Positions 3,837-21,800 of a stretch of 64,000 nucleotides of DNA are shown one piece after another. Each line of letters opens with the position of its first letter. Within the stretch, counting starts at the first letter, position 1. Source of the stretch: Branchiostoma floridae (lineage: Eukaryota; Chordata; Leptocardii; Amphioxiformes; Branchiostomatidae); contig NC_049995.1 of assembly GCF_000003815.2 (NCBI RefSeq), forward strand, positions 15,783,163 to 15,847,162, written 5' to 3'. Made by a program: the position numbers and the translations under genes. The notes below the pieces were generated by a model that was not told the origin of the DNA, did not search any database, and saw only the letters and a list, made by a program, of their open reading frames with translations.

Positions 3837-6800
3837 GTGAGTCAATCTTCTTTCTTCTTATCCTCCAAATTGCACGATTTTACGTGAATTTCTCTCCGTT
3901 ATAGCGACTCAAAGCTTGAGGCTATAGGCTACAACCGGCTCGCGCGAGAGGCCACTTCAAATTCTCATCCATTTTTACGATCATTCTGACAATTTCTACG
4001 TGTCAGGAACTCTTATATACGATAGACAGAGTTGGGTAAGGTCTTGTAGGTCTAAATCTCACTAGTATTTGTTCGGTAGCGGTTCCAGTAGGCTAGGAAC
4101 AAACAAAACACCACATGTTGAAATCGCAACCACACACACCGACCGCCGATCTCAACATGGCCGCCTAGGTGTTCGATTTTAAAACAAGTGACAATTAGAC
4201 TGAAAAATACTCTTTTAAGAGAACATTTAACATCTGTGAATTACCCATACACCTCAGATATGGTTTAAACTGTGTAGTAAATTTTGGAAATGTTTAATTT
4301 TGCCAGGAACACAGATTTAGGCAACTGTAGTTCGAACATATATTATGCCCCCCTCCCACCCTGGAAAAGAATAGCTAACCTCTTGAGTCAAGTATTACCA
4401 CAGACGCCAAGGTTAAATAACTCACTATGTTTACAGAATGTCTAACGATATTTCCACACACAAACACGCTATGATCTGTGTGCAGAAACATATAGATCAT
4501 TTAACTAGAGTTACATATGGTTTTGGTTAGGCCTAGAAAAATCAGTGTTGTGTTTCAGATAATTTANNNNNNNNNNNNNNNNNNNNNNNNNNNNNNNNNN
4601 NNNNNNNNNNNNNNNNNNNNNNNNNNNNNNNNNNNNNNNNNNNNNNNNNNNNNNNNNNNNNNNNNNNNNNNNNNNNNNNNNNNNNNNNNNNNNNNNNNNN
4701 NNNNNNNNNNNNNNNNNNNNNNNNNNNNNNNNNNNNNNNNNNNNNNNNNNNNNNNNNNNNNNNNNNNNNNNNNNNNNNNNNNNNNNNNNNNNNNNNNNCA
4801 GTACCAGCACGGTAAACTTTACCGTAAATTACGGTGTGCGTAATCGTGAACACGCCGTAAATACGATCGTAATTACGACCGTATTTACGGGGCGTTATCA
4901 CGTGGAAAACGGTCGGTAATATTCAGAATATTCATGTTTTGAACACCGTGTACACGGAATATTCATGAGAACGTCATTAATTATTAATCAAACAGCATGA
5001 TTTGCGGCAGAAATTTAGCGGCACCTGACCCGTAGAGCGGGAACCGCCGCATGCGTAACGTAACTAGGCTGGAGTTTTTTTCCAAGTAAATCGCGAGCCG
5101 GTCTTTGGCGATTTTCCTAACAAAATCTAGACTGCACAGCAGAACGATCCTCGTAACCAAAATTGCTCTCTTATATGAATGGAAAGTATTTCTCAAAGAG
5201 AAACATACGTGTATGCAATTAATACGGAGCCAGATACAACGTCAAAATAAAAATTTAAAAAACGCCTGTTTGCCGAAAATATAACGCAACCGGTTTACAC
5301 AAGTCACCGGCAAGCCAGCCGGCAAGCTTTGATATTGCCGCCGGGCGTGATCAGCGATCGGGAACAACCGCTAGCGCGCTCGAGGAAAACCATCGTCGAA
5401 TTTTGATAGGAATATCTTTCCACCATTAACGTTCGACAAATACATATCTGGAATGGTGCAACTATTTTAGAGCTACTACGTCCTCGCTACCTATTAAATA
5501 TGACCAAAGATGTTATAGTGAGACAATTTTCTCCACTGTATGACACATGCAGCCGGCGTATACACGCCGTAATTACGACGTCACGGCCGTGTATACAGTT
5601 TTTTGTGGTGTTTAGAAAGTGGGAAATGTTGTCAAACTTTGAGGTTTAGAGTGGAAATACAAGGTCTGCATTGTTGAAATCGAAATCAATTGATGCTTTT
5701 TTTGCGTGTGAATATGTTAAAGTTTAGGAGATGTTTAAGATACCGGCAGAATTGTAGCAAGAATCGGTCTGACTCGGGCCCTCCCACCGCGCTAAATTTG
5801 ATTGACACATACGGACAGGGCGCGGCTTCTTTGAGTTTGACGGCATATTCGATTCTCAAAGAATGGGCCCGCGCGTACTCAGCCCGGTGTGGCGAAAATG
5901 TGCAACAAAGGTCTTCATTCAGTCATTGTTTAATACAACAATCAGCACAGAGCTTGTTTTTCCACCGTGTTTGATGTTTTTCTTGGTTTAGTCTACTTGA
6001 TAGCGATATTAAGTACCAATGTATATATATATTTTGAATATTCATTGATATGACACACACAGCCGGCGTGTAAAACGCCGTAATCACGACGTCACGGCCG
6101 TGTATACATGTACGTTTTCTGTGGCATTCAGACAGTGGGGCATAATGTCAAATCTTTGGGGTTTTCACCGGAAAAATGACGCTTTTATTTTTTAAGTCGA
6201 AATCAATAGACCTTTTGAGCGTGTGAAAACGTTTGGTAGATATTCAGATATCACAAGGAGCTTTTATCAAGCTCCTTGGATATGGGTAGAATTGTAGCAA
6301 AGAATTGGTCTGATCCGGGCCCTCCCGCCGCGCCGCTCAATTTGATTGACACATGCGCGGCTCTTGTCGGCACACTCTCACACTCAAAGAAGGGGCCGCA
6401 CGTACTTTAATATTACAAAAATGTGCACGGAGATTTTTTTCTCCGTTATGTTTGACTTGTGGTTATATTTTCTTGGTTTATTCTATTTGATAGGGATACA
6501 TATATCGTGAGCCCACATCGTACAGCACAAAGAGTGTACAGATTTTTGGTTCTACTTCTAGCCTGCCCAAAGCCCAAGGACGTCAGCTTGGAAAACTGCA
6601 TTCGATTTTTTAACGACATTGAATGCGAAATTCTGTGCAATAGTTAAGTCACCGAGATCTGAAATGGCGTAATATTATGTAAGGAATTAAATATTTTATA
6701 ACCATTGTGTACTCGGTTCCCTAAGTTTGACCAAAACCTACCTAGTAGAAGGTACATCTAATGTTTGATCTTTTTTTGAAAATACAGTACAGCACAGAGC

Positions 6801-18800: not shown

Positions 18801-21800
18801 TTCTTGTAGACTTCTTTAGCTTGCTGTTGTTATATATGTAACAGTCAAGTTTCACCTTTAGCAGTAAGGTTAATTTACTCTCCCTGATTGTATGTATTAA
18901 CTCATGAAACATTATATTGTAAGGAATCAGTGTTATATTACTTGAAAATTACCTCATGTATTCTTTAAGCCATACCCACCTCAAATCAAGAACACATACC
19001 TCCCATTCTCAGGACAAAAGTAGTGTTGCAGCAAAGACAAAAATTTGGCTATATTCTACTTCAAAACGCAGGAAATAGCATTTCAGAGGCTTTAAATTTC
19101 AAAATTTTCCGGGGGAGGATACCCCGGACCCCCCTACAATGCCCGCGCCTTCGGCCTACCTAAAAGCCTGCCCCGCGGTTGTCAGGCGTGCGTACTCTGA
19201 CTTACAGTTGTTGTAATACATAATTTCTGAAAATAGGGTTGGGACAGTCCATCCTCACTTCGGGACAGTTGAAATTTATTTTTGGGACAATGCTGGGACA
19301 GTAAGGAAAAAAGTTAATTTTGAGGCCTGAATGTTTTCTTCATGGTCCGGAATGAACCATGAACGCGGCGGTTTGCCAAGATTCGCCGGAACTTCGAATT
19401 CACTTACGGGAAGCGTGTCGCCAGGCAGAATAGCATCGAAAGGTAGGTTATGGCAGTAAAGTGCTGTGATCGACTACACAGCGCCGGGGAAAAGGTTTGT
19501 ATGGCCCATAGCTACAGAGAATATTTTCTATGGCATCGGCATCTTTCTTTCCAATCTAAAATCTGGCGAAAACTTGAGAGAATGACTAGTAAGTTGTAAT
19601 AATAATGAGACTTGCCACAATATAAGATAAATACCATGGAGGTTAAAATCCTGAGTATCTTATTATATCCACTGAATTTTTTTGGGAAAAAGTTAGCACA
19701 ATTTGGGATCAAACCTTCGTTATCTTGCAGTCACATATTGACATTTAAAATAATACAATTTCAGGGTCGGAACCATAGTTTGATTCCATGCCGCAATCCC
19801 GGTTCACGTAATTAATGACCCGGCTAATTAATGTTTTATTCTGAATTCGAGAACGTCATGACAGGACTTGTATAGGAAAGGGCGCTAAACCCCTTTTAGA
19901 GTAGAGTATAGTAGAGTAGAGTTTTCTTCGGCCAGGTAGGAAACGGTTGATTCCATTTTAGGCCGCTTTTCTTCTTTTTGTATTGAGGGACCAGACATCA
20001 AAGCGTTTGATTTTACTGGGCTATTCAAAGATTAACCTACAAAACAAATTTTAAAACATGATAAAACAGCGTGTCCGGGCGTTTTCCCCGTCAAATACAT
20101 GTATAGCGCTAAATCAACTCCGACCCACCAACAGGCCCGCCATGACGTACAGCGACTATGCAAGCTTGCAAGACGGGAACGTGATCGCAATACACATCTC
20201 TGATTGGTTGATCCTACAGCAGTAGGGGGTTCCCCGATATATGCGGTCTGATTGGTCAAGCTACAGAATTCTTTCTTTGCTGAACCGTGATGCCTTGCGC
20301 CCGCACGCAAATGTTACATTTCGAAGCGCAAAAAACGCTATATTCCACGATTACATTGCAATGTTCTCGTAAAGAAATGCACAATTATGAAAATCTTTAA
20401 AGAAAGCATGCACTCATATAGAATTTGTGGTGCCATGGGAGAATTTAGCGTTGCCTGCCGCTGGCTGGGAATGACAAATATACGGCCATGGAAATATTAA
20501 CGTTAACTCAATATCAAACCTACAGCGCCCCCCAAAAAACTTATACAGAGGAACAAGGACGTAGAATAAACTTCATAGTGTTGCACATGGTATTACATTT
20601 GTAATCGGTATGGAAGATTCTCCTGGATAAACCAATCATCGGGTTATTTGGGCCGGGTAGAAGCTGCATGGGTCGTAGACCACCGGCCGAGTCCAGTACC
20701 CCACCGATCAGCAGAGCCAGCGTCGCTCGGTAGATTTATAAACCAAGGAGGTTTGATTTTTAACCTCCTTGATTTAACTTATAATATTTTGACACCAGTT
20801 ATTCCATATAATTATCTAATATTCAGCATAATAAAGATTATAAGACATTCTTTATTTGTAAACATGTTAAACTGTGATCAAAAGTTGCTATGTATTATGT
20901 TTACTATGAGTATTGTGCCCTCCTAGATCAAGTCCGCACGCACATCCACGCACGCTGCGTATTTCGGAGGTCAATGACCTATAAAATTTGCGCCGCTTCG
21001 AATGCAGAAAACTTCCGAAGGATTACACAATCCGACCACATTTTTTTTATTCCAGAGTATATAAGTAATGAAAGTATAAAAATAGCATTGTAGATTACAA
21101 TTTCGTATACTCAAAAAAAGACTTATGCCAATGAGAACGCAATCCGATAGCAACCTAAAGACGCACTACCGCGGGTCTGCGGTTTAATAGTACCCGCCGG
21201 TACGTTGACTTTACGACGGTCACAGGAAGGATGCCTGGCATTCATACTGTCGTAAAATCCAGGCGCTAATCAGTTCTTACGGCGAGGACACGCTGCTCAT
21301 TATCGACCTCATTAGCGTTAATGAGCTAGCGGCACCGTAATCTGGTGTTCACCGTAAACGTGTACACGATCGTAATTACGCCGTGTTTACGTTTTCGAAA
21401 TTACGTAATTACGGTAATTTTTACCATGCTGGTACTGTAGGTCCTGAAAAAGTTAGGGTTGGTTGGATTGCCTTTCTTAAAATGCGGCTGTCAACATAAT
21501 AGGGGTGAACGTTAAAGGGACCAAGGTTTGGTGGGTCTGTTAGTATTGTTTCTATCAGAGCAGACATTTAGAAAATGTTGGCAAATGATTCAACAATGCT
21601 ATAATCACTCAGATAAAATATCAGATGTGAGATAAAAATTTTGTGTTCCTTGCCAGCGTCCAACCAAAAAATAAGGCTAGGTTGGCAGGTTTTTGCTTGG
21701 GACGGCCACCAGGTTACTGAAAACACGAAACATTTTTCTTAGGCCTTGCAGTTCTTGGCATCTTGCTGCAAATTTGTGGATGTGTTTTCCTTATTGATGT

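Follow-up and report, generated by a model that had tools for sequence, protein, structure and literature searches.

A 16.6-kb Tc1/mariner-type element of amphioxus with a spliced transposase gene and a BEN-domain gene, and a diverged element of the same layout

Can a Tc1/mariner transposon carry a second gene that belongs to its own machinery? Elements of this superfamily typically, although not by definition, measure 1–3 kb and hold a single intronless gene, and their transposases are textbook one-gene machines. We analysed 64,000 nucleotides of the Branchiostoma floridae genome (contig NC_049995.1, here C17:15783163-15847162; called the window), in which a 16,639-bp element has inverted ends and encloses a transposase gene and a BEN-domain gene. 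Genome-wide searches used the assembly of 513,431,437 bases in 431 contigs. The ends are paired, TA is duplicated in the family, both genes have open frames, and the gene pair recurs in a diverged second element. We favour, with reasonable though far from full confidence, a cut-and-paste transposon of the Tc1 branch, autonomous by its layout and about 17 kb long, with two spliced, divergent genes encoding a DD34E transposase and a BEN protein that would act as an accessory transposition or regulatory factor.

A search of positions 4300–22200 for inverted pairs returned 15, the top one having 29-nt arms that are 90% complementary. These are the matching ends 16.6 kb apart that an earlier reading of this DNA by a model (the sequence-only reading) had described, and they agree with the inverted repeats expected of Tc1/mariner. 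The borders are the same as in nine short paired-end copies found elsewhere in the genome. Window coordinates are as follows.

4799–21437: whole element, 16,639 bp, bounded by paired inverted ends
4799–4827, plus strand: left terminal inverted repeat, beginning CAGTACCAGCA, from the inverted-pair search
21409–21437, minus strand: right terminal inverted repeat, from the inverted-pair search
21438–21439: TA that directly follows the right end and is one of the two copies of the target duplication
4567–4798: assembly gap of 232 bases over the left flank, its final N adjoining element base 1

That the gap stops exactly at transposon base 1 invites the speculation that the contig broke at an insertion that varies between haplotypes.

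The sequence CAGTACCAGCA occurs 449 times genome-wide, against 164 for its reversed control. The left end was searched with a 162-bp query, and 11 places (window included) match all 162 bp at 95% identity or more among the best 40 of 63 candidates, which were those scored. The right-end query of 298 bp gave 12 matches of at least 93% over at least 191 bases among the best 40 of 87. Among these scored candidates the ends form 10 facing pairs, the window element and nine copies, so the earlier expectation that the ends would recur as a pair was borne out. Unpaired ends are a left end on C6 (L060, 97% over 2.49 kb) and right ends on C13 and C9.

All nine short copies (L051–L059; 5,411–6,635 bp) were fetched whole, and TA flanks each of them on both sides. 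Because CAGTACCAGCA exceeds its control, the ends face each other elsewhere, and TA stands on both sides in 9/9 copies, the window ends are no chance pair. In eight copies the stretch in common with the window element measures about 1.2 kb at the left end and at most 0.5 kb at the right; in the ninth (L059) it is about 1.2 kb at each end.

4799–6357: left region common to the short copies, 82–84% over about 1.2 kb and weaker beyond
20944–21437: right region also present in the short copies, at about 75% over 0.5 kb, with the outer 198 bp at 96%

No match of 60 bases or more at E ≤ 1e-8 joins their interiors to that of the window element. In the two of the nine whose frames were examined there is no long coding frame (stop-to-stop frames within the element reach 128 aa at most), which gives no support to a coding role; judged by these two, the short copies look non-autonomous. 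Eight of the nine are 96–99% alike in long blocks, among the pairs listed, and so probably spread recently.

The short copy on C1 (L053:5931-6100) is inserted within a tandem repeat of some 104 bp, and the adjacent unit supplies the empty TA site that the sequence-only reading had proposed to look for. Aligned to the joined flanks with a single TA, this unit has one mismatch plus a 2-base gap at the far edge of the alignment, and it scores 104, versus 101 when TA is doubled; TA was therefore duplicated on insertion. The Tc1/mariner duplication is thus visible on both sides of all nine short copies and of the second element, on contig C8, described below; in the window copy the right TA, already remarked on before, is the visible one. 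Two other accounts of the ends, a chance pairing in the window and an existence only as small miniature inverted-repeat transposable elements (which the sequence-only reading had named as grounds for rejecting its proposal), are ruled out by the paired copies, the TA duplication and the C8 element.

The transposase gene has four exons on the minus strand (7968–11435) with GT-AG introns, and encodes 337 aa without a stop. Exon borders of this gene and of the BEN gene were read from the genomic sequence rather than from transcripts.

11149–11435, minus strand: exon 1, start codon and N-terminal part
10391–10601, minus strand: exon 2, first catalytic D (...FTDES...); the Pfam DDE_3 match starts here, at residue 151
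9727–9952, minus strand: exon 3, through QDN, with the second catalytic D
7968–8257, minus strand: exon 4, DPKHT...SPDLNPIE, catalytic E and stop

The protein matches Pfam DDE_3 at 3e-12, and a count by eye gives 34 residues from the second D (QDND) to the E, the DD34E arrangement of Tc1/mariner; the description of an intact DD34E transposase was accurate. Its nearest solved structure is Sleeping Beauty (8e-20), with Mos1 at 0.009, and this structure-database match, rather than a tree, points to the Tc1 branch. For a possible N-terminal paired-like helix-turn-helix domain, a trait of Tc1/mariner, the matches fall short of the Pfam cut-offs, both here (HTH_32 0.034, HTH_Tnp_Tc3_2 0.22) and in the corresponding piece of the C8 transposase (HTH_32 3.1e-6, HTH_Tnp_Tc3_2 1.1e-5).

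On the other side of a tandem array lies the BEN gene, divergent from the transposase gene as had been described, with five exons on the plus strand (12452–16555), GT-AG introns and 753 aa free of stops.

11778–12335: 150-bp tandem repeat, 3.7 copies, between the divergent genes; possibly a shared promoter region of both
12452–12644, plus strand: exon 1
12820–12992, plus strand: exon 2
13991–14062, plus strand: exon 3, lysine-rich
14387–14440, plus strand: exon 4, lysine-rich
14786–16555, plus strand: exon 5, containing repeats (13-aa and NNNPPQQA), a stretch that by eye looks like a coiled coil, the BEN domain and the stop
16328–16510, plus strand: BEN domain (Pfam BEN), residues 515–575 of the exon-5 frame

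The domain matches Pfam BEN at 4.9e-5 with 23.9 bits, above the cut-off of 23.2, and at 27.8 bits in the same position in a genome-wide scan. A profile search of solved chains returned BEND3 (0.006), BANP (0.05) and a fly chain (0.23). The genome-wide scan gave six BEN matches above the cut-off, in the order C8, C7, C14, window, C6 and C18. If they were randomly placed, the chance of a BEN gene per element would be about 2e-4 (6 × 16.9 kb / 513 Mb). With just six such matches in 513 Mb, a coincidental pairing of BEN gene and transposase is unlikely. C9 has a right end (93%, with TA) and, 1.4 kb inward from it, a decayed BEN stretch of 83% DNA identity, so at least one further BEN-bearing copy once existed. 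Between that stretch and the right end the C9 copy (L062:3595-4473) also holds a 292-aa frame that by eye resembles a reverse transcriptase.

A search of the genome with the window transposase gave 26 matches. The next-best after the window itself is on C8, at 43% identity over residues 6–239 and 57% over 271–337, and TA followed by CAGTACCGACCACG is located 3.4 kb past the 3′ side of that gene. A genome-wide search for this end, as 28 bases with at most 3 mismatches, finds 48 places, versus 0 for the reversed control; paired by hand from their coordinates, these are 19 facing pairs and 10 unpaired ends. The pair at C8:19134292 (plus) and 19151201 (minus), with ends TACAGTACCGACCACG, encloses an element of 16.9 kb, and of the other 18 pairs 14 span 4.8–5.1 kb and four span 0.55–6.6 kb. 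Read directly, the C8 element has CAGTACC ends with TA on both sides, and compared as inverted repeats its ends match at 70% over 158 columns. The transposase pieces QDNDPKHT and TPAESPDINP sit in separate small exons. On the opposite strand a frame of 566 codons, partly Ns, contains proline-rich repeats and a stretch resembling a coiled coil, together with a BEN domain, which matches that of the window by tblastn at 2.6e-4 and is the genome's best Pfam BEN match (1.8e-9, 38.1 bits, above the cut-off). The C8 element thus independently repeats the window element in its size, its ends with TA, its divergent pair of genes and the order of their domains. The multiple full-length two-gene copies anticipated by the sequence-only reading did not turn up for the exact subfamily, all transposase matches of at least 80% identity being confined to the window; they did in the form of this diverged element of the same arrangement.

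A third lineage, incomplete, fits the same plan. Contigs C3 and C16 carry copies of a transposase at 46% identity; the two copies agree at 99.5%, and they lie beside an end that matches the window end at 87.5% over 64 bp. The same end recurs on C7 at 100% (rounded) over 1.76 kb and is followed by a long run of Ns; a BEN domain lies 10.7 kb inside it and reads away from the end, a geometry that matches the window and C8 elements. Against a third lineage, no transposase was seen at the C7 locus and its far end was not found there. The 3084-aa frame around the C7 BEN domain was rejected as an artefact of Ns (N fills all four 60-base points sampled within it and 25 of the 71 bases at its edge). 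At C3:10275282, C16:1448012 and C7:15906114, stretches of 1.8–4.6 kb are 99.5–100% identical; this near-identity suggests assembly duplication, probably of parts of a single locus. A repeat of about 870 bp close to the C3 end (L067, about 2420–3295) occurs at many places at 80–94%, and also twice (once partially) in the C8 element, among the 40 scored of 5922 candidates. Inside the window element 17926–17948 and 19156–19178 are inverted repeats, and 17977–18185 matches the C3 and C16 loci at 76%, so that this is probably a nested repeat.

What might a BEN protein do for such an element? The end regions contain a recurring motif.

4868–4877: palindrome CGTAATTACG close to the left end, repeated exactly at 5568, 21371 and 21404

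These four exact copies are the only ones in the window and all lie within the element. With one mismatch allowed, every one of the nine short copies has six or seven, all within about 0.8 kb of the ends, versus one in 41 kb of 13 other loci and none in the 47 kb of window DNA outside the element. The 13 loci are a non-random sample: eight were fetched by the CAGTACCAGCA end pattern and five are transposase-like. The C8 ends have a motif of their own, ATCGCGAT, with three copies at the left and two at the right, none in the remainder of the 18 kb and none in the window. Also present there is AAATCGCG (four and two copies; one in the remainder of the 18 kb and three in the 64-kb window), and AAATCTCG has no occurrence in the C8 ends. 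Counts of 8-bp palindromes were reached by 0/500 shuffles for each window end and by 13/500 for the C8 left end, and show no excess at the C8 right end (74/500) or the C3 end (69/500); random window pieces reached the counts of the two window ends in 12/500 and 10/500 cases. Since this excess is uneven, the argument rests on the specific motifs and not on palindromes generally.

The BEN domain of BANP is reported to favour AAATCTCG or CGCG (PMC10206803) and that of NAC1 to bind ACATGT (PMC7764960). From the crowded end motifs and these reported palindrome or CGCG targets we infer that the BEN protein binds the ends of its own element. Its BEN domain would recognise the palindromic repeats at both ends (CGTAATTACG in the window, ATCGCGAT in C8), the coiled-coil-like stretch would serve its multimerisation, and the protein may in this way join the two ends of a 17-kb element for the transposase. 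Alternatively it might control the promoter region between the two genes. The short non-coding copies, which keep the end regions and their palindromes, would be mobilised in trans.

The recurrence of the gene pair in the distant C8 element makes the BEN protein probably part of the machine rather than a chance passenger, that is, an integral accessory gene of a two-gene branch of Tc1/mariner. The sequence-only reading had hedged between cargo and accessory protein, and this recurrence shifts the balance toward the latter. Several results weigh against it. Each complete two-gene copy found, on C17 and on C8, is the only one of its kind, and the gap at 4567–4798 hides the left flank of the window element, with any TA there. 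The window BEN match is barely above the Pfam cut-off, and in the profile search of solved chains unrelated kinases score E-values equal to that of BANP. Structure models are poor, with mean pLDDT of 54.8 for most of BEN exon 1 and 55.1 for the BEN domain, and a fold search with the BEN-domain model, uninformative at such low confidence, returned nothing at E ≤ 0.001. Identity between the window and C8 BEN domains is just 24%. A homology of BEN exon 1 to C8 was tried and dropped: 119 of 5000 shuffles reach its score, and other C8 frames equal it. The first-exon piece of the C8 transposase, taken without the triad pieces QDNDPKHT and TPAESPDINP, has helix-turn-helix matches only and none to Pfam DDE_3. 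At C3 and C16 the end is mutated to TTGTACC, with CA outside, and the far end of the locus was not found. Finally, the end motifs could equally be sites for the transposase.

The BEN gene may instead be cargo, a host gene captured once by an ancestor and without a role in transposition. Host chromatin factors with BEN domains are known, and the genome has further BEN matches, the closest of them 46–50% identical to that of the window (C308 and C6). Yet the two genes have stayed together, divergent and with repeats, coiled coil and BEN domain in the same order, while the transposases came to differ at about half of their positions. Idle cargo would be expected to be lost or broken, so we regard this explanation as unlikely. 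Slightly less probable again is a BEN protein that works on the chromatin around the element, as an insulator, anti-silencer or repressor of the transposase promoter, outside the transposition complex. Known BEN proteins are reported to act in repression and insulation and to recruit chromatin factors, and the 150-bp tandem array between the divergent genes also speaks for this reading; however, the CGTAATTACG palindromes cluster toward both ends and are retained in 9/9 short copies, a pattern more in line with end binding than with promoter control. The chromatin and end-binding roles are also compatible with each other.

An accident of assembly or nesting, in which unrelated ends happen to flank host genes, might be read from the gap that adjoins the left end, from the single-copy state of the full two-gene form of the window subfamily, and from the near-identical stretches on C3, C16 and C7 that suggest duplicated assembly pieces. 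It is largely refuted by the independent 16.9-kb C8 element with the same layout and by the decayed BEN sequence beside a 93% right end with TA on C9, and we consider it very improbable. The accessory-factor reading can also be pushed further, to a separate two-protein Tc1-like family in which BEN is an obligatory partner that reads the palindromes of its own ends, protein and sites having co-diverged (CGTAATTACG versus ATCGCGAT). This stronger form is a serious possibility to which we give somewhat less than even chances.

The window element resembles other Tc1/mariner elements in its DD34E transposase, its TA target and its ends, which start with CAGT as Tc1 ends do. It is unlike the typical member in its 16.6 kb, its two genes, and its introns, three in the transposase gene and four in the BEN gene. 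The closest parallel in manner of working is PIF/Harbinger, with a DDE transposase and a second, more divergent protein of DNA-binding type. The Harbinger Myb-like protein is reported (PMC9179366) to bind the element ends and to accompany the transposase into the nucleus, and to be the more divergent of the two proteins. A similar relation holds here, the window and C8 BEN domains being 24% identical versus 43–57% for the transposases. The two systems differ in transposase family, in the second protein (Myb-like there, BEN here) and in the target duplication, which in PIF/Harbinger is 3 bp and here is TA. Neither the window nor the C8 proteins have the Harbinger transposase and Myb/SANT-like gene of that group; Pfam scans at E ≤ 10 of the window transposase, of exons 1, 2 and 5 of the window BEN gene and of the C8 pieces gave DDE_3 and BEN but no Harbinger or Myb model. 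With BANP, BEND3, NACC1 and Insensitive the BEN protein has the Pfam BEN domain in common, its matches to solved BEND3 and BANP being weak, and it is unlike them in being encoded inside a transposon, beside a transposase, with expanded repeats.

The Tc1/mariner superfamily and two-gene DNA transposons are both known; the combination of Tc1 with BEN appears to be new. Among the titles and abstracts listed from the literature searched, which took in few subscription papers and had Repbase outside its scope, none describes a Tc1/mariner element with a BEN gene. If the accessory role is true, this would be, to our knowledge and from that search, the first case of a BEN domain that takes part in a transposition machine. 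A branch that keeps a second DNA-binding gene through deep divergence would mean that Tc1/mariner, like Harbinger, can evolve a two-component system, and would suggest a possible origin of BEN proteins beyond host chromatin regulation. The short mobile derivatives with known ends in the same genome make the system open to direct excision testing.

Two observations concern the window outside the element. Positions 42592–43263 are a 63/126-bp minisatellite with about 10 copies of the shorter unit, and 56001–58000 has a GC skew of 0.264, the strongest of the 32 2-kb blocks.

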